Source: Flavobacterium collinsii
GTDB lineage: Bacteria > Bacteroidota > Bacteroidia > Flavobacteriales > Flavobacteriaceae
Assembly (NCBI RefSeq): GCF_902804485.1
Contig: NZ_CADCST010000100.1
Coordinates: forward strand, 1-64,000
Reading direction: 5' to 3'
Length of the DNA stretch: 64,000 nt
Under the pieces are notes generated by a model. That model saw only the letters and a program-made list of their open reading frames with translations, ran no database searches and was not told the DNA's origin. Made by a program: the position numbers and the translations under genes. This document shows, one piece after another, positions 7,173-27,757 of the stretch. Position 1 is the first letter of the stretch, and each line of letters begins with the position of its first letter.

Positions 7173-7835
7173 ATGAAGAATACACTTATTGCTCCTTCTG
7201 TTCTTGCAGCTGATTTCGCTAATTTACAACGTGATATCGAAATGATCAATAACAGTCAAGCCGACTGGTTTCATATTGATATTATGGACGGAGTTTTTGT
7301 TCCGAATATTTCTTTCGGAATGCCGGTTTTAGAAGCGATTTCAAGACATGCAAAAAAAACTATAGATGTACATTTGATGATTGTTGACCCGGATCGATAC
7401 ATCAAAACTTTTGCAGACTTGGGCGCAAATATCTTAAGCGTACATTATGAAGCCTGTACCCATTTGCATAGAACACTTCAGGCCATTAAAGCCGAAGGAA
7501 TGAAAGCAGGAGTTGCAATTAACCCACACACTAATATTGATTTATTAGAAGATGTAATCAACGATATTGACTTAGTATGTATTATGAGTGTAAATCCAGG
7601 TTTTGGAGGTCAATCATTCATCGAAAACACTTATGCTAAAGTAGAGAAGTTAAAAGCCTTAATCACACGTAAAAATGCTTCTACAATTATTGAAATTGAT
7701 GGTGGCGTAACCAGTAAAAATGCAAAACAATTAGTAGAGGCTGGTGCCGATGTTCTGGTTGCCGGAAGCTTTGTCTTTAAAGCCGAAAATCCAACTCAGA
7801 CTATTGCAGAATTAAAAGCTTTGACTAGCTTCTAA
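7173..7835 (+). CDS. rpe: Ribulose-phosphate 3-epimerase
   Basis: A 220-residue TIM-barrel enzyme that interconverts ribulose-5-phosphate and xylulose-5-phosphate in the pentose phosphate pathway. Hallmarks are IAPSVLAADFANL at the N-terminus, WFHIDIMDGVFVPNISFG (metal-ligand His and Asp), the DVHLMI strand, MSVNPGFGGQSFI and EIDGGV (second metal Asp), and a phosphate-binding ADVLVAGSFVF. The start at 7173 gives the usual family length; a longer reading from GTG 7113 would run through the -7 box. It is a single-gene unit closed by a hairpin shared with the convergent AraC gene. Confidence 0.96.
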   Translation: MKNTLIAPSVLAADFANLQRDIEMINNSQADWFHIDIMDGVFVPNISFGMPVLEAISRHAKKTIDVHLMIVDPDRYIKTFADLGANILSVHYEACTHLHRTLQAIKAEGMKAGVAINPHTNIDLLEDVINDIDLVCIMSVNPGFGGQSFIENTYAKVEKLKALITRKNASTIIEIDGGVTSKNAKQLVEAGADVLVAGSFVFKAENPTQTIAELKALTSF

Positions 7836-7853
7836 AGACTTAAAAAAAATAAC

Positions 7854-7887
7854 AAACCGGCAGATTTTAAAACCTGTCGGTTTTTTT
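7854..7887. terminator. Terminator between rpe and the AraC gene
   Basis: Arms AAACCGGCAG (7854-7863) and CTGTCGGTTT (7874-7883) pair with one G-T wobble, followed by a T-run on the plus strand and preceded by A's. It lies between convergent genes and can serve both. Confidence 0.75.
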
Positions 7888-7923
7888 ATGTCAATTCTAA
7901 AAATAGATTTTTGAGCAAAAAGA

Positions 7924-16425: not shown

Positions 16426-18465
16426 ATGAAAGTATTAGATTTCCCTTTAACTAAAATTACCACTTGGTTTATTTATGGTATTTTAGTTTCGTACTATTAT
16501 CCGCTAGCATTCTGGATGGCCGTCGCAGCCTTTATTATTGGTCTCATTACTTTTATACTTGTTTATTTTTCGATTCAAAAAAATAAAAAACCACCTGTAA
16601 TCTTCGGAATAAGCACATATTTTGTTTCGTTTCTTATTGGTGCCGTAACACTTTTGTTTCACTCTGAATCGCTACAAAAATCCAATTATACACATTGCAA
16701 AGACGCTTTTAAAGTTCCTCAGACTATAAATTTTGTCATACGTGAAAAATTAAAGGGTAATGCATACAATGATCGCTACAATGCCATAGTCAAAGAGATC
16801 AATGGCAAAAATTACTCCGGAAAAATTCTGGTAAACATTCAAAAGGACAGCACTAAAAACCCAATTATAATTGGAAGTATAATAAAAACCAAAACCATTT
16901 TACAACGCAATAGTCCAAATAAAAATCCAAATCAGTTTAACTATCAAAAATACCTTTCGGACAAACAGATTTACGCTCAGGTATACCTTAATACAGTAGA
17001 AATCGCGGTTAGCAAAAAAAATCAAAAAGACATTTGGTATTATTCAGGTCGGTTACATTCAAGGATATATAACAATCTGAAAAAGGCCAATTTTAACATG
17101 ACAGAAATGAATGTTGCTCTTGCCCTTATATTGGGGCAACGACAAGAAATTTCAAATGATCTTATTCAGGATTATCAATTCTCTGGAGCCACACACATCT
17201 TATCCGTTTCCGGACTGCATGTTGGATTTATTATGTTGTTTATCAGCTTTATTCTAAAACCCGTTCCCAATACACGAAAAGGCTCTTTATTAAAATTAAT
17301 TTCGATTCTCCTGTCTCTTTCATTTTTTGCGATACTCTCAGGCCTGTCTCCGTCAGTATTGCGCTCTGTCGTTATGTTCTCATTCCTGGCTGTTGGCAAC
17401 CACCTTAGAAGAGCAGGTAGCATTTACCACACTTTACTTGCTTCGCTGCTTTTAATTCTACTCTTTGAACCTTATTTTCTGTTCGATGCCGGTTTTCAGT
17501 TAAGTTACCTCGCCTTATTTTTTATTCTTTGGCTACAGCCTTTGTTAAAAAGTATGTGGTCTCCGAAACTCAAAATTTTACATTTCATCTGGAATGCATT
17601 AACCGTTTCCTTTGCTGCACAAATAGGTACCTTACCACTGTGCCTGTATTACTTTCATCAATTTCCGGGATTATTTTTTGTGACCAATATTATCGTAATT
17701 CCTATTTTATCGTTTATAATGATCGCAGGAATTATAGTAATGTTTCTTGCTGTTTTTTGCCCTCCTCCCATGCTCTTAATTGAGATATTTGAAAAAAGCG
17801 TTTCTCTTTTAAATCTTATGATTCACTATATTGCTTCGCTCGATTGGTTTGTTATACGGGATATTAGCTTTAACTTCTATCTTTTGATCACTTCTTATTT
17901 TGTGGTTATTGCAGGCATTATTTGGGGCAAAAAAACCAATTACAACACAACGTTTGCTTTACTGATTTCTATCATCACCTTTCAAATTTCTCTACTTTAC
18001 ACCAAAAGAGAAACAGAGACCAAACTGGAAATGATTGTCTATCACACAAAGAAAAACACTTTAGTATCTCAAAGAAAAGGAAGCACAATCAAGGTGTATT
18101 CAAATGATACAGTACCCCTTCAAACATCAAAGGCAACCATTCTAAATTCTTATTTGGTGGGGAATTTCAGCAAATTAGACACTATTACTAAAATTAAGAA
18201 TATACTGTTTTTTAATGGTAAAAAAATCTTAGTAATTGATAGTTCCGGAATTTATGAAAGTAAAATTCAACCTGACATTCTGATGTTGATTCAATCTCCA
18301 AAAATAAACTTAGAGCGTATTTTACAGGAGTTACATCCTAAAATTATAATTGCTGATGGATCCAATTCTTACGTTATTCAGAAAATCTGGAAAAGCAGCT
18401 GTAATAAAAAAAACATCCCTTTTCATGCCACAGCCGAAAAGGGATTTTACTCCTTAAATGAATAA
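16426..18465 (+). CDS. ComEC/Rec2 family competence-like membrane protein
   Basis: A 679-residue polytopic membrane protein related to ComEC, the inner-membrane channel that moves single-stranded DNA in natural transformation. It has N-terminal membrane segments, a DUF4131-like region with an OB-like part (SGKILVNIQKD, IIIGSIIKT), and the ComEC core (LILGQRQEIS, GATHILSVSGLHVGFIM, then SPSVLRSVVMFSFLA). It ends with a soluble remnant (about 540-679) where a metallo-beta-lactamase domain sits in longer ComEC proteins; the HxHxDH signature is absent. The start follows the conserved MKVLxFPL beginning. A -7 box abuts the ATG. Confidence 0.9.
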   Translation: MKVLDFPLTKITTWFIYGILVSYYYPLAFWMAVAAFIIGLITFILVYFSIQKNKKPPVIFGISTYFVSFLIGAVTLLFHSESLQKSNYTHCKDAFKVPQTINFVIREKLKGNAYNDRYNAIVKEINGKNYSGKILVNIQKDSTKNPIIIGSIIKTKTILQRNSPNKNPNQFNYQKYLSDKQIYAQVYLNTVEIAVSKKNQKDIWYYSGRLHSRIYNNLKKANFNMTEMNVALALILGQRQEISNDLIQDYQFSGATHILSVSGLHVGFIMLFISFILKPVPNTRKGSLLKLISILLSLSFFAILSGLSPSVLRSVVMFSFLAVGNHLRRAGSIYHTLLASLLLILLFEPYFLFDAGFQLSYLALFFILWLQPLLKSMWSPKLKILHFIWNALTVSFAAQIGTLPLCLYYFHQFPGLFFVTNIIVIPILSFIMIAGIIVMFLAVFCPPPMLLIEIFEKSVSLLNLMIHYIASLDWFVIRDISFNFYLLITSYFVVIAGIIWGKKTNYNTTFALLISIITFQISLLYTKRETETKLEMIVYHTKKNTLVSQRKGSTIKVYSNDTVPLQTSKATILNSYLVGNFSKLDTITKIKNILFFNGKKILVIDSSGIYESKIQPDILMLIQSPKINLERILQELHPKIIIADGSNSYVIQKIWKSSCNKKNIPFHATAEKGFYSLNE

Positions 18466-18602
18466 TTTTTTAATTACTCTAGAAAAGACAAATAAATCTC
18501 TTCTTAAGTCCGGGATACTTTGATTGATTCTAACAACAACATTTTCATTTAACAAGTGAAGAAGTGTTACAAAATCAAACAGCTAAACTGATTCTAAAAT
18601 GC

Positions 18603-19049
18603 TTATGGATTCAAAATTAAATTCGCATCTGCTATCCATGCTTTTGCGCCACCCTGCCTATAAGGAACCAAACCTAAATTGTTAAAGGTCGTTTTCCCTT
18701 TTCTAACGGAAGCCATTAAAAGACATACTTGAGGTAGTTCTGCAATGCCTAAAGCATTTTTTAATTTTAGATTTTGCTCTTTTACCATGTCCGACACAGA
18801 ATCATCAGACATATCAAGTTTTACTAAAATAACATTGTCACGTGACCATACCGCAAAATCAGGTGTGACAAAAATTTCACTCTGAATCCTCTCCGGTGCC
18901 CCAGCGGCAGTAAAAAAAATCAATAAAGGCCGTTTTTGTGAATCACTCGCCATGATGGCATCATTCATATCTGTCTTCCAAATTAAATTTTGGGAATGCA
19001 GACCAAACGCACCTAAAAAAAATAATAAGATAAGTAGTTTTCGGGTCAT
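18603..19049 (-). CDS. Exported thioredoxin-fold protein lacking CXXC (paralogue 3)
   Basis: A 148-residue protein with a signal peptide (FGLHSQ) and a thioredoxin-like fold, closely similar to the next gene upstream and less to 19998-20465. Aligned with the intact paralogue, the active-site loop FFTGSDWCGWCIRLQ is FFTAAGAPERIQ here: both cysteines are gone and three residues are missing. The cis-Pro is kept (LPQVC, Pro at about 106), with a cysteine three residues later (about 109) where the intact paralogue has Tyr. It cannot act as a CXXC oxidoreductase. It may bind proteins or use the lone Cys; this is inference. Confidence 0.8.
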   Translation of the reverse strand: MTRKLLILLFFLGAFGLHSQNLIWKTDMNDAIMASDSQKRPLLIFFTAAGAPERIQSEIFVTPDFAVWSRDNVILVKLDMSDDSVSDMVKEQNLKLKNALGIAELPQVCLLMASVRKGKTTFNNLGLVPYRQGGAKAWIADANLILNP

Positions 19050-19320
19050 ACTAAGTTGGTTTTTTTAAGTAGGTTAATGCGACTAAATTAACATAATATC
19101 TTTATCAAACAAGACATATCTAAACAAAAACGATAAAAAAAATAACAGAAACACAAATTCACTAATAAAGTCACAAATTATTAAGAAAATAAAAAAATAT
19201 CCGGCTTTAATTGACAAAACCACTGATCAACAGAACAAACCGTTCAAAAAAAAATCCCTTCTCACCCGAGAGCAAAAAGGGAATCTACAAATTAAACTAA
19301 GAAACTTAATTTAAATTTTA
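19050..19320. other. Spacer between the two CXXC-less thioredoxin-fold genes
   Basis: An AT-rich spacer with no gene. The part next to the downstream gene (19050-19110) resembles the region upstream of the 19321-19773 gene, both containing AAATTAACATAATAT. A terminator-like hairpin lies at 19255-19282. Confidence 0.55.
19255..19282 (-). terminator. Terminator after the 19321-19773 gene
   Basis: TCCCTT (19255-19260) pairs with AAGGGA (19277-19282). An inner CTC/GAG pairing supports the stem, and on the minus strand a run of T's follows. Confidence 0.6.
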
Positions 19321-19773
19321 TCATTCACTTGGATGTAAAATTGCATTTGATTCCGCAATCCAGGCTTTTGCACCACCAGGTTTATAGGCAATTTTTCCTA
19401 AAGCACTAAAAGTAGTTTTATTTTTTCTGATCGAAGCACTTGCAAAACATACTTCCGGTAAGTCCTCAACTCCAAAAGCATTCTTTAATTTTAGTTTTTG
19501 CTCTTTATCACTTTCATCGGCAGTACTGTCAGACAAATCAAGCTTTACAAGGATAACATTGTCGCGTGACCAAACCGCAAAATCCGGAGTTTTGAAAATT
19601 TCGTTTTGAAGATTTTCCGGTACACCTGAGGCAGTGAATAAAATCAACATGGGTTTTTTCTGTTCATTACTAAGTGCAATTGCATCCGTCATGTTCGTTT
19701 TCCAAACTAAGTTCTGTGCCTGCATAAAAATTGAACCGAAAAAAAATAGTAGGATAAGTATTTTTTTGGTCAT
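19321..19773 (-). CDS. Exported thioredoxin-fold protein lacking CXXC (paralogue 2)
   Basis: A 150-residue secreted thioredoxin-fold protein (signal ending MQAQ). The active-site loop reads LFTASGVPENLQ instead of FFTGSDWCGWCIRLQ, so the CXXC is deleted as in the 18603-19049 protein. The cis-Pro followed by a Cys (DLPEVC, about 106-109) is also shared. The two differ mainly at surface positions and keep KTPDFAVWSRDNVILVKLD-type segments in common, consistent with a tandem duplication after loss of the active site. It has its own terminator. The role is unknown; a non-redox binding or scaffold role near the peptide transporters is a guess. Confidence 0.82.
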   Translation of the reverse strand: MTKKILILLFFFGSIFMQAQNLVWKTNMTDAIALSNEQKKPMLILFTASGVPENLQNEIFKTPDFAVWSRDNVILVKLDLSDSTADESDKEQKLKLKNAFGVEDLPEVCFASASIRKNKTTFSALGKIAYKPGGAKAWIAESNAILHPSE

Positions 19774-19936
19774 ATTAAATTGGTTTTTGGTTAGAATATC
19801 AAGACGAAATTAACATAATATTTTAATTTTCCAATTTTTATTAATACAAAAAATACATTATACATTTTTTTAAACAAAATAAAATATCAAATACTTAATA
19901 AGTGTAAAATTGGTAATTCCTTTTTCTTACTAAACA

Positions 19937-19968
19937 AAAAACTCCTTACCAAAGGGTAAGGAGTTTTT
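19937..19968 (-). terminator. Terminator after the intact thioredoxin-fold gene
   Basis: A perfect 14-base stem (AAAAACTCCTTACC at 19937-19950 and its complement at 19955-19968) with an AAAG loop. It lies about 30 bases after the gene on the minus strand and ends in a T-run. Confidence 0.85.
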
Positions 19969-19997
19969 TGAACTATAATTGTAATTGAGTATTTACT

Positions 19998-20465
19998 TTA
20001 AGATTTTTTGGGATGTACAATTCCTTCCGCAACTGTTAACCATGCAGCCGGGCCACCCGCAACATATCCTGTCTGCCCCAATCCTTTAAAATTGACTTTC
20101 CCGTCTTTGGACTCAGCACTTGTAAAATAAATGGTCGGAAACCCCTGAATTCCAAATGCTTGCTGCAATTCATTATTCTGATTTTTAAGTTCTGGCGTTT
20201 GAGGTGTTCTTCTTGGATAATCGAGCTCAACCAAGACTACATTCTCCGTAGCCCATTTTTTGAATTCAGTTGTTTTTAAAACCTCATTCTGTAAACGAAT
20301 ACACCACCCGCACCAGTCACTTCCGGTAAAGAACATCAACAAAGGTTTTTTCTCCTTATTACTTATTGTTATGGCTTCTTTGACGTCTGTATACCATTTT
20401 AGCTCTTGTGCCTGTGTTACAAATGCTCCGGCTAAAAATAGTGTTATTAAAAATATTTTTTTCAT
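19998..20465 (-). CDS. Exported thioredoxin-fold (DUF255/thioredoxin_7-like) protein with CXXC
   Basis: A 155-residue periplasmic thioredoxin-like protein. It has a signal peptide (ending VTQAQ), an active site FTGSDWCGWC (Cys 52 and 55), and a cis-Pro loop GFPTIYF at about 109-113. Such proteins reduce or exchange disulfides in exported proteins. It is the intact member of three paralogues in a row and the probable ancestor of the two CXXC-less copies downstream. It has its own promoter (TTTTG, then TAAATTTG) and a strong terminator, so it is probably transcribed alone. Confidence 0.9.
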   Translation of the reverse strand: MKKIFLITLFLAGAFVTQAQELKWYTDVKEAITISNKEKKPLLMFFTGSDWCGWCIRLQNEVLKTTEFKKWATENVVLVELDYPRRTPQTPELKNQNNELQQAFGIQGFPTIYFTSAESKDGKVNFKGLGQTGYVAGGPAAWLTVAEGIVHPKKS

Positions 20466-20481
20466 ATCCTTTTATTTTTCA

Positions 20482-20510
20482 CAAATTTAAACAAAAAAAG
20501 AATCGCAAAA
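20482..20510 (-). promoter_or_regulatory. Promoter of the intact thioredoxin-fold gene
   Basis: On the minus strand, TTTTG (20510-20506) is followed after 16 bases by TAAATTTG (20489-20482), which matches the -7 consensus. The ATG at 20465 is about 16 bases further on. Confidence 0.55.
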
Positions 20511-20516
20511 TGTCGT

Positions 20517-22001
20517 CTATTTTACTTCTTGCATTAATTTTCTAATAATTGGCGAAATTGCAATTAATATAACCCCTGCAACAAACGAATAAATTGCCAA
20601 TTGATAATATCCTTCTGTATAAGACTGCAATTTAGAAAGCAATGTATCTCCTGTATTTGATCTTGATATTTCTGCACCTAATTTCCCTGCAAATAATTGC
20701 CCGAATGCACTTGCCAGGAACCACAATCCCATCATCATTCCGAATAATCTTTTTGGAGATAATTTGGTAATAATTGACATTCCGATTGGCCCTAAACAAA
20801 GCTCTCCAATAGTTGTTATCAAATAAGCAAACGTAAAGACATTTAAAGAAGCTATACCTTCTGAGCTTGCAAAAAACTTAGTTAGATAAAAGATGTAAAA
20901 GGAAGCTCCAAGGAATAAAAACCCAATTCCAAACTTAATCAAAGTGTTTGGTTCAATTTTTCGTTTTCCAAGCCAAATCCACAATAAACCAATAAGCGGA
21001 CTCAAAACAACTACAAAAAAGGTATTAGAACTATTATTGACTACGTTAGGATCTATCGTAAAAAACAACAATTGATCACTCAAATTGTCTTTGGCAAAAA
21101 GCGATAACGACCCACCGCTTTGTTCGTATATCGAGTTAAATAACAAATAGAAAAATACAAACAAAAAGGCTGCGAAGAGCTTTTTCTGCATTTTTACATC
21201 TCCTAGTTTTATCAATTCATAAACAAAATAGAGAACGGCAATTATACCAATCGTATACATGAAATAATCCGTATAATCGGTATTTTTCACCATTATAAAA
21301 ATAAATGGCAAACTCAGTATCGATACTGCATACACTATTATTTCACGAATTCTTCTTTTACCTGCATCCAGATGCAATAATGGAGAATCTCCAATTGGGC
21401 CCAAATGTTTTTTTGTAAACAAAAAGGTAATCAATCCCAAAAACATCACTATTGCGGCCGACAAAAAGCACAGTTGCCAAGAGTAGTATTTTCCTAAATA
21501 AATACACAAAGCACCTCCTAAAAGGCCTCCAACATTTATTCCGGCGTAAAACATTCCGTAACCTGCGTCTCTACGACCATCTCCTTCATGGTACAACTCT
21601 CCTACCATTGAAGAAACATTTGGCTTAAAAAACCCTGTTCCAATGATCGAAAACGCAATACCATAATAAAACATCACCTGAGGAGAAAAGGCAATCAAAA
21701 GATTTCCAAGAATCATAACGATCCCTCCAAAGAATAATGATTTTTTAAACCCTAATACCTTATCAGCAAAAATACCGCCGATAAAGGTAAAAGCATAGAC
21801 AAAAGCCTGAATGGCTCCATATTGTAAATTGGCGTGCTCATCTTTCAACAAAAGCTGATCTACCATAAAAAACGTAAGTACGCCACGCATTCCGTAAAAG
21901 CAAAAACGTTCCCACATTTCAACAAAAAACAAATACCACAGTTGTCTTGGATAAGTGCCTTCAAAATTTTGAATCTCCTCTAAAGTGATCTTCTCTTCCA
22001 T
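20517..22001 (-). CDS. POT/PTR2 family peptide:proton symporter (copy 3 of 3)
   Basis: A 494-residue membrane transporter of the proton-dependent oligopeptide family, importing di- and tripeptides across the inner membrane. It shows the proton-coupling ExxER motif in EMWERFCFYGMR, the PTR2 segments IGTGFFKPNVSS and YAGINVGGLLG, and the late signature GELCLGPIGMSIITKLSP. About 14 hydrophobic segments are visible. It is 14 bases downstream of another POT gene and in the same transcription unit as dipeptidyl peptidase IV, which makes dipeptides. Confidence 0.93.
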   Translation of the reverse strand: MEEKITLEEIQNFEGTYPRQLWYLFFVEMWERFCFYGMRGVLTFFMVDQLLLKDEHANLQYGAIQAFVYAFTFIGGIFADKVLGFKKSLFFGGIVMILGNLLIAFSPQVMFYYGIAFSIIGTGFFKPNVSSMVGELYHEGDGRRDAGYGMFYAGINVGGLLGGALCIYLGKYYSWQLCFLSAAIVMFLGLITFLFTKKHLGPIGDSPLLHLDAGKRRIREIIVYAVSILSLPFIFIMVKNTDYTDYFMYTIGIIAVLYFVYELIKLGDVKMQKKLFAAFLFVFFYLLFNSIYEQSGGSLSLFAKDNLSDQLLFFTIDPNVVNNSSNTFFVVVLSPLIGLLWIWLGKRKIEPNTLIKFGIGFLFLGASFYIFYLTKFFASSEGIASLNVFTFAYLITTIGELCLGPIGMSIITKLSPKRLFGMMMGLWFLASAFGQLFAGKLGAEISRSNTGDTLLSKLQSYTEGYYQLAIYSFVAGVILIAISPIIRKLMQEVK

Positions 22002-22015
22002 TTATTTATAAATAA

Positions 22016-23674
22016 TTAATTAATTCCTTTTTCTTTCATCACTTTATTAAGCTCCTTTACCAAGGCAAACATTAGCACTGTTGCAAACATTAACAATGCA
22101 AAATTAACCCAAAAAAAGTTAGCTTTATTATCGTAGGTGTCCCACATACTAGCCAAAACTCCACTTAATTTATTCCCTATTGAAGTAGATAAAAACCAAC
22201 CTCCCATCATTAAGGATGTAATATTTACCGGGCTTAGTTTAGACACCACCGATAATCCCATTGGACTTAAAAACAATTCTCCTATGGTTATGATTCCGTA
22301 ATTGGCTACCAACCACCAGACACTCACTTTCTCCGCCCCATCATGACCAATTTGAACGGCAGCTATCATAACTAAAACCGACAATGCAGAAATTAATAAC
22401 CCAAAGGCTATTTTAGTAGGTGTTGAGGGCTCTTTTTTTCTTGAACGTAAAAAAGAAAAAAAAGCAACAATCAAAGGGGTTAGTATGATCACCCAGGCAG
22501 GGTTTATAGATTGACTTAAATTGGTTGCCCACAAATGAACTTTACCTCCTTCTGCGGGAAGTTTCTCTGGCGCAACGTTTCTAAAATATAGCGGATAATT
22601 TACTTCTTTCTGAACTTCACCATTTACTTTTTGCAAACGAAACTGATGATCATAAAGTTCTACCGATTCTTTTTTATATTCGACTTCTTTGGCTAATTTT
22701 AATTTTCCAACAAGCTGACCCGTTGTTCCGGTAACTTCTCTGTCTGTATAGCGATCTGCCCAAGTGGTAAGCGCTGAGCCATTAAGTTTAAAAACCGCCC
22801 AAAATAAAATAACAACACCAAAAATAGCCAACAAAGCTCCTATTGGTCGTTTGTCTTCTGCTTTTGCTTTAAAATAAAGTGATCCGTAAAAGAAAATTAT
22901 CGGAATACAGGCAAATATAAAGGCATCTGTACTATCTGAACCAAAAATATAACTATCTAAATTTGTTTCTGACGTTACTCCTTTTATCAACCAGCCAATT
23001 GCTCCAAAAACAAAAGATGGCAATAAAATAAACAGGATGATTTTGTAAAACGGCATATCGCCTTCCTGTACTCCTTTTTTCTGATCATGGCCTACATAAT
23101 GTTTTGTACCCAATAAAAATACAATAACACCAATAAACATACCTACACCCGCTGCCATAAAGGCCCAATGCCAGCCTAATAGAATTTGCAGTGCAGCACC
23201 AAAGAAATTACAAATAAAACCTCCAACATTAATTCCCATATAGAAAATATTGTAGCCTTCGTCTTTTTTATCTTTATATTCTTCATTAGAATAAAAACTT
23301 CCCAATAGTGTAGAAATATTAGGCTTAAAGAAACCATTTCCTACAATCACCAAAGTCATGGCAATATAGAGCACCGTTATATCATGAACTCCCATTAAGA
23401 AATAACCAATACCCATTAAGATTCCTCCCAAAACGATCGATTTTTTATAGCCTAAATATCGATCTGCGATAAGTCCGCCAATAAAAGGAGTTAAAAAAAC
23501 CAATGCGATAAAGGTTCCGTATAAGTCAGAAGCTTCTTTCTCGGTCATAGCAAAACCATCCTTTACATCTTTTAGATATAAAGTAAATATTCCAATCATT
23601 AAGTAATATCCAAAACGTTCCCACATTTCAGATAAAAACAAAAAAGGCAATGCTTTAGGGTGTTTTTTCCACAT
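22016..23674 (-). CDS. POT/PTR2 family peptide:proton symporter (copy 2 of 3)
   Basis: A 552-residue POT transporter. Motifs are EMWERFGYYLMIGIF (ExxER), VGNGFFKPNISTLLG, YMGINVGGFICNFFG and GELFLSPMGLSVVSKLSP. A polar insertion of about 90 residues at roughly 295-385 (around YKKESVELYDHQFRLQ) lies between membrane segments and is absent from the other two copies, so it may form an extra periplasmic or cytoplasmic loop that alters specificity. It follows the third POT gene after a hairpin at 23697-23730 that may reduce read-through. Confidence 0.92.
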   Translation of the reverse strand: MWKKHPKALPFLFLSEMWERFGYYLMIGIFTLYLKDVKDGFAMTEKEASDLYGTFIALVFLTPFIGGLIADRYLGYKKSIVLGGILMGIGYFLMGVHDITVLYIAMTLVIVGNGFFKPNISTLLGSFYSNEEYKDKKDEGYNIFYMGINVGGFICNFFGAALQILLGWHWAFMAAGVGMFIGVIVFLLGTKHYVGHDQKKGVQEGDMPFYKIILFILLPSFVFGAIGWLIKGVTSETNLDSYIFGSDSTDAFIFACIPIIFFYGSLYFKAKAEDKRPIGALLAIFGVVILFWAVFKLNGSALTTWADRYTDREVTGTTGQLVGKLKLAKEVEYKKESVELYDHQFRLQKVNGEVQKEVNYPLYFRNVAPEKLPAEGGKVHLWATNLSQSINPAWVIILTPLIVAFFSFLRSRKKEPSTPTKIAFGLLISALSVLVMIAAVQIGHDGAEKVSVWWLVANYGIITIGELFLSPMGLSVVSKLSPVNITSLMMGGWFLSTSIGNKLSGVLASMWDTYDNKANFFWVNFALLMFATVLMFALVKELNKVMKEKGIN

Positions 23675-23696
23675 AACTATACAGTCTTTAAAATTA

Positions 23697-23730
23697 AAAT
23701 TACCTACAAGCCTAGACCTGTAGGTAATTT
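23697..23730 (-). terminator. Hairpin between the first and second POT genes
   Basis: AAATTACCTACA (23697-23708) pairs perfectly with 23719-23730 around a ten-base loop, with T's after it on the plus strand and A/T-rich flanks on the minus strand. It lies inside the same-strand POT series, so it may act as an attenuating terminator. Confidence 0.65.
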
Positions 23731-23751
23731 TTTATATCTAATAATTATTAA

Positions 23752-25428
23752 TTATCGAACGCCATGCATCATCTTTTTCAAAAATGGAGTTAACGCAAAT
23801 AATATGATTGCAGCAAGTCCTGTAAGCACTACGAATACCATGAAAAACTCGTATAAATTATGGATTTCAAATCCAGCAAAGAAGTGATTATGTGCACTGA
23901 TTTGATGTTTCTCTAATAAAGCCAATTGTTCCGCTGTTGGTGTAATTTTGTTATCTAAAACTGCCTGAAGATCGATTCCTAATTCTTTTGCTTTTGCAAA
24001 TTTATCTCCTGTTGCAGGCAAGATAGAACCTAAAGTTCCTCCTAAAGCATAACCGGATGCATTTGACAAGAAAAAGACTCCGTATAACAATGAAGCGAAA
24101 CGTTTTGGAGACAGTTTACCTACCAATGACAAACCAATTGGAGACAAACACAATTCAGCACATGTATTTAAGAAATACAATAAAATCAACCATTTTACCA
24201 ATAACAGGCCTGAAGTTCCAATATAAGAAACCTGAGTTGCAATCATGAAGAAACTAATAGAAATCACGACTAAACCAACGGCTAATTTTACCGGTGAGAT
24301 TGGCTCTGTTCCTTTGGCTCTTAAAGTATCCCAAAGTATACTAAAAGGTACCGCCAGGATTACCACAAACAGTCCGTTGAAAATCTGAACCATTGACGGT
24401 GGCATTTGCCAGCCAAAAAAGTTTCTGTCCGTTTGATTGTCTGCAATAAAAGTCAATGATGAACCAGCTTGCTCAAAAGCTGCCCAGAAGAAAATGATAA
24501 AAAAGGAAACGATATAAATAACGATAATCCTGTCTCTCTCAATTTTAGTTAAAGAAGTGTCCGAAATAATTAATCCGGCTAATGATAAACCACTAGAGTA
24601 GATCAAAGTATAAATCAGGTTCTGACCTACCACATAATGAAAAAAGAATCCTAAAGCTACAAATGCAATTCCGGCAACTGCTAACGCTTTATTTGAGAAA
24701 TTTGCTTTTTGCGCTTCTCCTTCTTCAAAATCAGAAGCGTCATTTTTAGAAGGCAAACCTCCTAATGGTTTTCCTTCAGGAGAAACTACGTATTTATTCT
24801 TTAAAAAGTAAAAAAGTAACGTCCCTAATAACATTGCAATAGAAGCGGCAAGGAATCCCCATCTAAAAGCATGAATATCTCTAATTCCGCCAGCATCTTT
24901 TACATCTCCTAATAAAGGACAAATAGACTGACCTAAAAAAGCTCCAATGTTGATACCCATATAGAAAATAGTAAAAGCACTATCTAATTTTGTTTTTTCC
25001 TGTTTTGGATACAAACTTCCAACCATACTTGAAATGTTTGGCTTGAAGAATCCGTTACCAAAAACAATAACTCCTAACGCCGTATACATAATGATTGTAG
25101 CAAAGGCTCTGTTACCTTCAAAAACACTACCACTGGTAAACAACAACAACTGTCCAATTGCCATTAACAATCCGCCTAATAGAATACAGTTTCTGTTTCC
25201 TAAAAAACGATCGGCAACAAAACCACCCAACATAGGTGTTAGATAACAAAGTCCAAGGAAACCTCCATAAATTAAAGAAGCCTCTTCTTCCTTCATCAAT
25301 AATGAATTCACAAGAAATAAAGTTAATAAAGCTCGCATTCCATAAAAATTGAATCGCTCCCACATCTCCGTTCCAAATAATACCCAAAGTCCTTTTGGAT
25401 GTGCAGTTTTTACTTTAGTTTCTCCCAT
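23752..25428 (-). CDS. POT/PTR2 family peptide:proton symporter (copy 1 of 3)
   Basis: A 558-residue POT transporter with EMWERFNFYGMRALL (ExxER), FGNGFFKPNISSMVG, YMGINIGAFLGQS and AELCLSPIGLSLVGKLSP. A polar segment near residues 215-240 (SKNDASDFEEGEAQK) is a probable cytoplasmic linker between the two six-helix bundles. It starts 36 bases after the dipeptidyl peptidase IV gene, so secretion of the peptidase and uptake of its products look coupled. The ligand range is not predictable from sequence. Confidence 0.93.
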   Translation of the reverse strand: MGETKVKTAHPKGLWVLFGTEMWERFNFYGMRALLTLFLVNSLLMKEEEASLIYGGFLGLCYLTPMLGGFVADRFLGNRNCILLGGLLMAIGQLLLFTSGSVFEGNRAFATIIMYTALGVIVFGNGFFKPNISSMVGSLYPKQEKTKLDSAFTIFYMGINIGAFLGQSICPLLGDVKDAGGIRDIHAFRWGFLAASIAMLLGTLLFYFLKNKYVVSPEGKPLGGLPSKNDASDFEEGEAQKANFSNKALAVAGIAFVALGFFFHYVVGQNLIYTLIYSSGLSLAGLIISDTSLTKIERDRIIVIYIVSFFIIFFWAAFEQAGSSLTFIADNQTDRNFFGWQMPPSMVQIFNGLFVVILAVPFSILWDTLRAKGTEPISPVKLAVGLVVISISFFMIATQVSYIGTSGLLLVKWLILLYFLNTCAELCLSPIGLSLVGKLSPKRFASLLYGVFFLSNASGYALGGTLGSILPATGDKFAKAKELGIDLQAVLDNKITPTAEQLALLEKHQISAHNHFFAGFEIHNLYEFFMVFVVLTGLAAIILFALTPFLKKMMHGVR

Positions 25429-25464
25429 ATTCTTTATTATTTATTTAAGGTTTTTAGTTTTATG

Positions 25465-27636
25465 TTATAAATTTTCTTTGATAAAGTTAGTCATTTTGTT
25501 ATAAAGCTGAATTCTGGTCTTTCCGCCATGAATCCCGTGGTTTTTATCCGGATAAATCTGAGAATCAAATTGTTTATTCGCTTGAATTAAAGCTTCCATC
25601 ATTTGCATTGAATTTTGCACATGCACGTTATCATCAGCCGATCCGTGAATCAATAAGAATTTCCCTTTTAATTTATCAACGTGATTTATCGGAGAGTTCT
25701 GATCGTAACCGCTTGCGTTTTCCTGAGGAGTCTGCATGTATCTTTCTGTGTAAACACTGTCATAAAAACGCCAGTTTGTTACCGGAGCAACTGCAATTGC
25801 CATTTTGAAAACATCGTTCCCCTGAAAAATACAATTTGAAGCCATAAATCCACCAAAACTCCATCCGAAGATTCCAATTCTTGCAGGATCAACATACGGA
25901 TAAGCGCCGATTACTTTTGCAGCATCAATCTGATCTTCTACTTCGTATTTTCCTAATTCTTTTTGAGTTACTTTTTTGAAATCAGCACCTTTATAACCTG
26001 TTCCTCTACCATCAACACAAGCTACGATATAACCTTGCTGTGTAAGAGATACAAACCAATAATCATCTGGATTGTTCCAGTCGTTATTTACCTGTTGAGA
26101 ACCCGGACCAGAATACTGGTACATGAAAACAGGATATTTTTTTGAAGGATCAAAATCTTTCGGTTTTAAAATCCATGCATTAAGCTCATTTCCTTTTGCT
26201 GTTTTTAAAACGAAAAATTCTTTTGCCGGTAGGTTGTAAGCTACTAATTTAGAAGAAAGATCTTTGTTGTTTTCGATAACCTGAATTTCTTTTCCCGTTT
26301 TAGCCTCGTTCAAAGTATAAGTAGTTGGCTGTAGATTACTTGAGAAAGTATTAATAAAGAACTGAAAGTTAGGGCTGAAAGTTGCCGAGCTCGTTCCTGT
26401 AATTTTAGACAAACGAACTTTGTTCTTTCCATCTAAAGCAATGCGATAAATATCTCTGTTGATTGAACCGTTTTCTGTAGATTGGTAGAAAACTGTTTTG
26501 TTTTTTTCGTCGAAACCGTAGTATGAAGTTACTTCCCAGTTTCCTTTTGTGACCTGATTCTTAAGCTTTCCGTTTTTATCATACACATAAATATGATTAA
26601 ACCCGTCTTTTTCACTTGTCCAGATAAAGCTATTGTCTTTTAAGAAGGTTAAATCGCTGGTAACATCGACATAAGCTTTGTCTTTTTCATTTAGAACCAC
26701 TTTTGCCGCTGCAGTCGTTCCATCTACAAACAACAAATCCAAATTATTCTGGTGACGGTTTAAAACCTGAGCCGACAATACATTGTTGTCATTTGTCCAT
26801 TGTAATCTTGCGATATAAAAGTCATTGTAGTTTCCTAAATCTACTTTTTTACCCGTATTACCCACCGCATCATATATATGTAGAGATACTACTGAGTTTT
26901 TTTCTCCTGCCTTAGGATATTTAAACGTTTCAATGGTTGGGTACAAATCTTTTTGAAATATAGACATCGAAAATTCCGGAACGGCACTTTCGTCAAAACG
27001 GATATAAGCTATTTTTTTACTGTCTTTACTCCAGTCGAAGGCACGTACAAACGCAAACTCTTCTTCATAAACCCAGTCCGTAATACCGTTGATAATGGCA
27101 TTCTTCTTTCCATCGGTTGTAACCGCTGTTGATTTTTTTGACGCCAGATCATATACATACAAGTTATTTTCTTTTGCATATGCGATTTTAGTCCCATCAG
27201 GAGAAAAAGTCGGTTCCTGAATCTGAAAATCAAACAGTTTAGTTAACGATTTTGTATTAATATCATATAAAAAATAATCTGCTGTAAACGAATGACGGAA
27301 GATTTTTTTGGTATTGCAGGCAATTAAAATCTTTTTTTCTGAGGCATCAAAAGTATAACTGTCAATCCCTTCAGAAAGCGCTGTGTGATTCTTGGTATCA
27401 ATTAAATTAGCTACTTTTTTTAATGTTGCAAAGTCATATAAATCGATTTGCATGCTTCTGCTGGCCTGATCTACATTTAGAACTGTATATTGCTCTGTAT
27501 TTTTTAACGATTTCAGTTCATCCATTCCTTTTGCCCGAAATGCTCCACTATAAATATTCTCGACCGTAATTTTTTGCTGGCCGAAAACAGTCGCAACTAA
27601 AAACAAAAATATAACAGTAATTTTACCTGTATTCAT
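25465..27636 (-). CDS. Dipeptidyl peptidase IV (S9B family)
   Basis: A 723-residue exported serine peptidase that removes N-terminal X-Pro or X-Ala dipeptides. It has a signal peptide (IFLFLVATVFG), an N-terminal beta-propeller (about 60-470) and a C-terminal alpha/beta hydrolase. The nucleophile is Ser in GWSFGGFMASN, the acid Asp in HGSADDNVH and the His in KNHGIHGG; a DWVYEEEF motif in the propeller supplies the Glu pair that binds the substrate N-terminus. I chose ATG 27636, just before the signal; an upstream ATG would add 21 residues of a second hydrophobic stretch. It heads the peptide-uptake series. Confidence 0.95.
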   Translation of the reverse strand: MNTGKITVIFLFLVATVFGQQKITVENIYSGAFRAKGMDELKSLKNTEQYTVLNVDQASRSMQIDLYDFATLKKVANLIDTKNHTALSEGIDSYTFDASEKKILIACNTKKIFRHSFTADYFLYDINTKSLTKLFDFQIQEPTFSPDGTKIAYAKENNLYVYDLASKKSTAVTTDGKKNAIINGITDWVYEEEFAFVRAFDWSKDSKKIAYIRFDESAVPEFSMSIFQKDLYPTIETFKYPKAGEKNSVVSLHIYDAVGNTGKKVDLGNYNDFYIARLQWTNDNNVLSAQVLNRHQNNLDLLFVDGTTAAAKVVLNEKDKAYVDVTSDLTFLKDNSFIWTSEKDGFNHIYVYDKNGKLKNQVTKGNWEVTSYYGFDEKNKTVFYQSTENGSINRDIYRIALDGKNKVRLSKITGTSSATFSPNFQFFINTFSSNLQPTTYTLNEAKTGKEIQVIENNKDLSSKLVAYNLPAKEFFVLKTAKGNELNAWILKPKDFDPSKKYPVFMYQYSGPGSQQVNNDWNNPDDYWFVSLTQQGYIVACVDGRGTGYKGADFKKVTQKELGKYEVEDQIDAAKVIGAYPYVDPARIGIFGWSFGGFMASNCIFQGNDVFKMAIAVAPVTNWRFYDSVYTERYMQTPQENASGYDQNSPINHVDKLKGKFLLIHGSADDNVHVQNSMQMMEALIQANKQFDSQIYPDKNHGIHGGKTRIQLYNKMTNFIKENL

Positions 27637-27757
27637 TAGAATTATTTTAAATATAAAAAAGAGCCCAATTTTAGTAAAAAAAATGAACATAATACCCATT
27701 ATAATTGTTAAATGTTAAAAAAAATAACGATTGCGTACTTTTCAATTTTCAAATACA

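Follow-up and report, generated by a model that had tools for sequence, protein, structure and literature searches.

The window analysed here, the first 64,000 nucleotides of a Flavobacterium collinsii contig (NZ_CADCST010000100.1, forward strand), carries three related thioredoxin-fold genes in a row on its minus strand, called I, A and B in the order in which they are read. Gene I (19998..20465) codes for a predicted exported DsbH-like thioredoxin-fold protein of 155 aa with a WCGWC active site and a cis-proline in the motif F-P-T-I-Y, as seen from the ORF list, the alignment and its Pfam and NCBIfam scores. Genes A (19321..19773, 150 aa) and B (18603..19049, 148 aa), characterized from the ORF list, alignment, tree and dN/dS values, code for predicted exported paralogues devoid of CXXC. 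The earlier note on this DNA had described an intact exported WCGWC gene beside two CXXC-less paralogues, which is indeed what the open reading frames hold, and it had read the active-site loop of both paralogues as three residues shorter and free of cysteine. Our alignment against I agrees: the three columns holding D-W-C in I, including the first active-site cysteine, are deleted in A and B, and the second active-site cysteine is replaced by another residue, leaving the loop without any cysteine. The proline of F-P-T-I-Y aligns with those of L-P-E-V-C in A and L-P-Q-V-C in B, and the tyrosine of I becomes a cysteine; the note was thus right that the cis-proline is kept and that a cysteine follows three residues on, its phrase “next to the cis-proline” being correct if taken as cis-Pro+3 and not as direct adjacency. 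This cysteine, the only one in each protein, is residue 109 of both precursors, read from the sequence as a TGT codon at 19447..19449 in A and at 18723..18725 in B (minus strand), with column statistics given below. A and B share 63% identity, against 41% between A and I and 39% between B and I.

The N-termini, judged by eye, resemble signal peptides, with a short K/R-rich start, a hydrophobic stretch and, ahead of the mature residues, [A/S]-Q; across the CXXC-less clade defined below, 21 of 190 members have a cysteine within the first 24 residues. Family models recognize the three proteins very unequally. I scores above the cut-offs of four Pfam thioredoxin-type models (Thioredoxin_2 at 49.1 bits and Thioredoxin_7 at 45.9 bits, for a cut-off of 27); A and B fall below all four, their best matches (Thioredoxin_7, PF13899, at 21.3 and Thioredoxin_2, PF13098, at 19.9 bits for A, PF13899 at 17.8 bits for B) not reaching the gathering cut-off of 27. 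The nearest NCBIfam model is DsbH, NF043050, for each of them, with 115.5 bits for I, 50.2 for A and 39.8 for B, all short of its cut-off of 190. There is no further copy in the genome itself, where every match outside I, A and B has an E-value of 0.03 or worse.

Upstream of I lie three POT-family peptide transporter genes (20517..25428, minus strand), seen both as ORFs and in the layouts of 80 homologous loci; together with a DPP-IV-type peptidase gene they precede I on the same strand (20517-27699), and two of the three POT genes are present in about 60 of these 80 loci. The whole looks like a run of peptide-use genes ending in an exported thioredoxin. In the 80 loci, with few exceptions, one or more POT transporter genes come first, followed by I, A and, if there is one, B, and then by comEC on the opposite strand. 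In five of the 80 layouts, L083 included, the adjoining comEC consists of two open frames, a split that may be due to a frameshift, a stop or a sequencing error. Two loci carry inserts between I and A: three proteins with a common N-terminal part, on the other strand, in L102 (2158-5565), and a transposase-like pair in L115 (4426-5786), all named by eye; inspection of these two inserts gave no functional hint.

Both CXXC-less genes are preceded by a promoter-like site on their own strand. That of A (19805..19834) comprises TTG (19834-19832), a 19-nt spacer and TAATTTCG (19812-19805), its −7 element ending 31 nt before the ATG; that of B (19083..19112) comprises TTG (19112-19110), 19 nt and TAATTTAG (19090-19083), ending 33 nt before the ATG. 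The promoter consensus given for F. johnsoniae in PMC6847099 is TTTG / TANNTTTG, with a weak −33 element. We modelled our search pattern on it, with one −7 base left free and TTG for the −33 element. This pattern, which was written after seeing the two sites of the window, occurs upstream of 96/105 A genes, 44/85 B-like genes and 3/104 I genes; it is missing before nine A and 41 B-like genes, and its background is 1.6% of mononucleotide shuffles and 3/188 on the opposite strand. A scan with an E. coli sigma-70 model, which is unsuited to this phylum, gave no excess (10 sites found vs 8.6 expected). Directly after A and before B stands a terminator-like hairpin with a T run (19255..19282, minus strand), the one such element found in 18400-20600, where shuffles average 1.4, making it weak when taken alone. 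With so many A genes having a promoter-like site of their own, co-transcription with I is not needed for A; judging from these sites, A looks independently expressed, as do roughly half of the B-like genes, beside the gene run that ends with I.

Among 398 sampled Flavobacterium genomes, 349 have a match to A at an E-value of 1e-6 or better, and about 93 carry the CXXC-less type by hand count: 84 of them have a best match below 1e-58, and in the other nine, with best matches between 5e-46 and 1e-34, the loci were read. Presence was confirmed at the sequence level in 55 of the roughly 93 (46 + 9) and judged by score in the rest. A locus matching at 2e-36 (L138) turned out on reading to be of the CXXC type. 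By score, the clade is absent from about three quarters of the 398 genomes; as those with weaker best matches were mostly judged in this way, a few more carriers are possible. We also scanned the contigs of named genomes with N-terminal patterns of A and B, leaving the cysteine region unused, and kept the best 80 of the 97 loci that matched. One CXXC-less copy was found in nine of these 80 loci, two in 65 and three in six; the cysteine is present in 156 of the 157 copies and a tyrosine in the remaining one. An A copy is found in 80/80, in loci for which A and B themselves had served as queries, and the absence of a second copy from nine of them makes B dispensable in some species. The third copies lie in L054, L056, L061, L063, L087 (about 7390-7890) and L098 (1710-2156).

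Outside the genus, the picture is different. A profile of the clade matches 35 of 397 genomes of the family at 1e-15 or better, three of them from Flavobacterium itself. We read 27 loci from other genera, five further matching genomes not being among them, and found no CXXC-less member: all 27 have WCxxC and no cysteine at +3. In the genomes sampled, the clade is known only from Flavobacterium.

For the phylogeny, we aligned 307 unique proteins from loci L001-L153 and the window, 116 with CXXC and 191 without. One CXXC-less protein, from L144, branches elsewhere and was set aside; the remaining 190 form one clade with zero CXXC tips inside it, a FastTree support of 1.0 and a stem branch of 1.06. 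Losing CXXC and gaining the cysteine therefore count as one event in a common ancestor, shared by descent. The sister group consists of 105 CXXC-type proteins (support 0.80), and the proteins from other genera branch outside. This branching, together with the side-by-side position of the genes, fits a duplication of gene I, and the A/B branch was most likely born in this way within the Flavobacterium line; after the loss and gain, the clade lineage duplicated again, giving A, B and sometimes a third copy. As for the protein set aside (L144:1498-3159), it is a Flavobacterium protein of 553 aa in which a DsbH-like domain with WNGWS is fused to a DUF1573 domain. Both active cysteines are replaced there without any deletion; as its branch lies outside the A/B clade, this protein seems to have lost CXXC independently.

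The case rests chiefly on how well the new cysteine is conserved across the clade. A cysteine stands at cis-Pro+3 in 189 of the 190 unique clade members and in none of the 116 CXXC relatives, a pattern that exceeds chance and upholds the conservation of the LPxVC cysteine that the earlier note had wished to see examined in homologues. The sole member without it is the B copy of Flavobacterium salmonis (L113:6682-7128), which has a tyrosine instead (LPEVY). Counted over the 191 CXXC-less proteins, the mature part holds exactly one cysteine in 180, two in nine and none in two. CXXC at the N-terminal end of helix α2, present in I, is absent from A, B and all 190 clade members, with a loop shortened by three residues in 184 and by two in six. 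The cis-Pro position, assigned by sequence, is proline in 186 members, A and B included; in four proteins it has given way to Thr (three) or Ser (one), through two changes on the tree, yet the cysteine persists, as in the third copies of L056, L061 and L063, which read LTQVC.

The cysteine did not come alone, as the cis-Pro loop around it is rewritten from G-[FY]-P-T to [DE]-[LI]-P-[EQ]-V-C. Position −2 is Gly in 116/116 CXXC proteins and Asp/Glu in 173/190 clade members; −1 is Phe/Tyr in 116/116 and Leu/Ile in 182/190; +1 is Thr in 113/116 and Glu/Gln in 181/190 (Gln in 84); and at +3, 113/116 of the relatives have Tyr, Phe, His or Trp. Within the clade, +2 (V/A/I/T) and +4 (F/L/Y/I) vary, whereas +3 is invariant bar the one tyrosine. 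Elsewhere, the Y-P-R that follows a conserved Asp becomes L-S-D, each residue at 94-96%. In the numbering of I, six columns (W24, P41, F46, F68, W71 and D82) are invariant in the clade, just as they are in I itself. Conservation also reaches at least 99% at G130 and A103, the usual residues at these places in I too, and at the new Cys 113, the only column at this level whose residue differs from the common residue of I. The cis-Pro loop of thioredoxin-fold enzymes helps bind substrates, and its rewriting as a block would fit a changed binding partner better than a mere loss of catalysis.

Both catalytic cysteines lost, a shortened loop and one internal stop flagged in each of three B-type matches (G000, G245 and G289) could suggest that A and B are decaying duplicates, that is, pseudogenes on their way to being lost. 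We consider this extremely improbable. The stop flagged in G000 is simply the normal end of B, as the match extends over the whole end of the 148-aa frame, stop codon included, and no internal stop occurs in any A match listed; moreover, the proteins form a single clade across many species. Median dN/dS (Nei-Gojobori, pairs limited to dS 0.15-1.0) is 0.041 for A (105 sequences, 480 pairs), 0.10 for B-like (85 sequences, 195 pairs) and 0.049 for I (104 sequences, 448 pairs; twelve distant ones of the 116 CXXC proteins were left out of this group, as in the promoter counts), with maxima in the pairs used of 0.64 for A and 0.52 for B-like. The cysteine column has undergone about 28 silent changes on the tree vs one amino-acid change, the medians over 128 columns being 52 codon changes and 13.5 amino-acid changes. 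Decay is rejected on these dN/dS values and silent/replacement counts: the reading frames are under strong purifying selection, the other point that the note had singled out for checking, and the new cysteine is essentially fixed. The note had further taken a shared loss plus a shared gain as a sign of selection for a non-redox or single-cysteine function instead of decay. Its conclusion is supported by the later conservation, the kind of function that it names being inferred; its premise carries no weight by itself, since loss and gain happened in one common ancestor and the fact that both paralogues show them is no argument alone.

The long identical stretches between A and B might also have come from gene conversion, a cause that we rejected: at shared residues, third-position identity between A and B is 0.537 when both come from one genome and 0.535 when they come from different ones (75 loci). 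Synonymous sharing being equal in the two cases, the identical protein stretches come from selection and not from recent copying. With one loss-and-gain event, a duplication and strong constraint thereafter, A and B have the look of functional proteins that took on a different role, not of broken copies.

An AlphaFold2 model of mature A, built on a 106-sequence alignment, is confident (pLDDT 89.3, pTM 0.83) and predicts a DsbH-like thioredoxin fold. Its best PDB match is 2ju5, DsbH of Chlamydia, with Z 18.8 over 122 residues and an rmsd of 2.0, the next match being at Z 14.7; Foldseek also puts 2ju5 first, and the clade profile run against PDB sequences matched 2ju5 only (E 1e-17). In the model, the cysteine (residue 90) lies just past Pro87 in the strand formed by residues 88-97. 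In E. coli thioredoxin, Leu78 stands at cis-Pro+2 and faces Asp26 and the active-site cysteine; by this geometry, residue +3 should point to the opposite side of the sheet. The analogy suggests that the cysteine would sit on the other sheet face, near helices 1 and 3, and not in the active-site groove where the earlier note expected it. From the residues alone (+1 polar, +2 hydrophobic, a large aromatic or His at +3 in most relatives), we infer that a half-exposed place would suit it.

What, then, could A and B do? The reading that we prefer, and to which we give about an even chance, is that they are exported and non-catalytic, serving as monothiol adaptor or binding proteins whose cysteine is functional. 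A and many B genes would be transcribed from their own promoters; the proteins would be exported through Sec, work in the periplasm or farther out, and presumably no longer perform dithiol-disulfide exchange. Further steps are weaker: the lone thiol may serve in binding by forming reversible mixed disulfides, either with a client or with the WCGWC protein I encoded next door, I might then recycle the A/B thiol, and the altered acidic cis-Pro loop might set client specificity. Three DsbD-type and two VKOR-type membrane domains score over their cut-offs in the genome, so that reduction and oxidation of exported thiols would both be possible. A bolder form of the same reading, tentative and in our opinion rather unlikely, would have the working thiol moved from the helix-end CXXC to the strand after the cis-proline, the groove being reused around a relocated monothiol (as a mixed-disulfide carrier, thiol sensor or cofactor site) that the DsbH-like neighbour recycles; this would be a previously undescribed class.

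As far as sequence can tell, the conservation fits a reactive thiol, a packing cysteine and a ligand cysteine alike and cannot separate them. The main rival, unlikely on balance but well worth keeping in mind, makes the cysteine a structural core residue: the aromatic residue at +3 had to shrink when the loop shortened, a cysteine being of suitable size, and A and B would be non-redox binding domains whose thiol takes no part in any chemistry. Tyr, Phe, His or Trp at +3 in 113/116 relatives indicates that a large-to-small change went with the loss of the loop; the E. coli thioredoxin geometry described above would turn +3 away from the active site, to the opposite face of the sheet. A docking thioredoxin-like domain is also known, the UAS domain of UBXN7 (PMC10080908), and its structure 2dlx ranks fifth among the matches of our model. 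Packing, however, should sometimes admit Ala, Ser, Val or Thr; none of these occurs at +3 among the 190 proteins, although neighbouring positions do swap such residues, and the sole exception is a tyrosine.

That the cysteine and nearby polar residues serve as ligands of a metal or cofactor, with A and B as periplasmic carriers, is improbable to our mind. The acidic or amide flanks (Asp/Glu at −2, Glu/Gln at +1) would suit it, and the thiol could have been freed for this by its move; yet +1 is Gln in 84 of 190 members, so a carboxylate is not required there, no His or second Cys is found among the columns conserved at 93% or more, and none of the six neighbour genes compared is a metal gene. 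More doubtful still is a redox-switched oligomer in which A and B form disulfide homodimers or A-B heterodimers through their single cysteine, an idea encouraged by the one cysteine in each protein, by the adjoining genes and by the VKOR-type proteins of the genome; against it speak the loci with a lone copy (9/80) and the inner strand, which would be a poor place for an intermolecular disulfide.

The wider interest of these genes is that the thioredoxin fold is a standard case for asking how a fold keeps or changes its function once the catalytic residues are gone. Here, the CXXC relative still adjoins, loss and gain fall on one branch, and the cysteine outlives the cis-proline in four proteins, which makes the locus a clean natural experiment on the re-use of a fold. 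In practice, the signature offers annotators a way to recognize proteins that score under the Pfam and NCBIfam cut-offs used here. The CXXC-less clade overturns nothing that is known.

Thioredoxin folds lacking one or both cysteines have already been described (PMC2757866, and PMC4839744 for the anterior gradient proteins). In our limited search of the open literature, mostly of titles and the starts of abstracts, we met no account of a branch whose cysteine is fixed at cis-Pro+3, and among the papers that this search gave on Flavobacterium/Bacteroidetes, DsbH and CXXC-less thioredoxins, no title or abstract start names the A/B proteins. Among known systems, DsbH (2JU5, NF043050) is the closest, sharing its fold with the whole of mature A and its CXXC site with gene I; unlike DsbH, A and B have no CXXC, a shorter loop, a rewritten cis-Pro loop and the cysteine at +3, where 2JU5 has a valine (F-P-E-L-V). 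The C-terminal domain of DsbD (2FWH) and its Bacteroides relative 3F9U have a related fold, at Z 12.2 and 14.7, respectively; the DsbD domain, which is fused to a membrane domain, carries electrons through the dithiol of its CXXC. UAS domains (UBXN7/UBXD7, 2DLX), at Z 12.7 against the A model, are thioredoxin-like, and that of UBXN7 is not known to have CXXC; nor is a conserved cysteine known at +3 in UAS domains. In UBXN7, this domain acts by docking to its partners (PMC10080908). It belongs to a eukaryotic multidomain protein that is not exported, in contrast to the predicted export of A and B. The anterior gradient proteins (AGR2, AGR3 and newt AG) are animal proteins that we liken to A and B by structure and description only, being secretory single-domain thioredoxin folds with 3ph9 and 9i3f at Z about 11. 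Most of them, AGR3 mostly excepted, have a single active-site cysteine, which is essential for the activity of newt AG (PMC4839744). Their single cysteine stands in the canonical active-site motif, whereas that of A and B lies in the strand after the cis-proline, the loop itself being free of cysteine.
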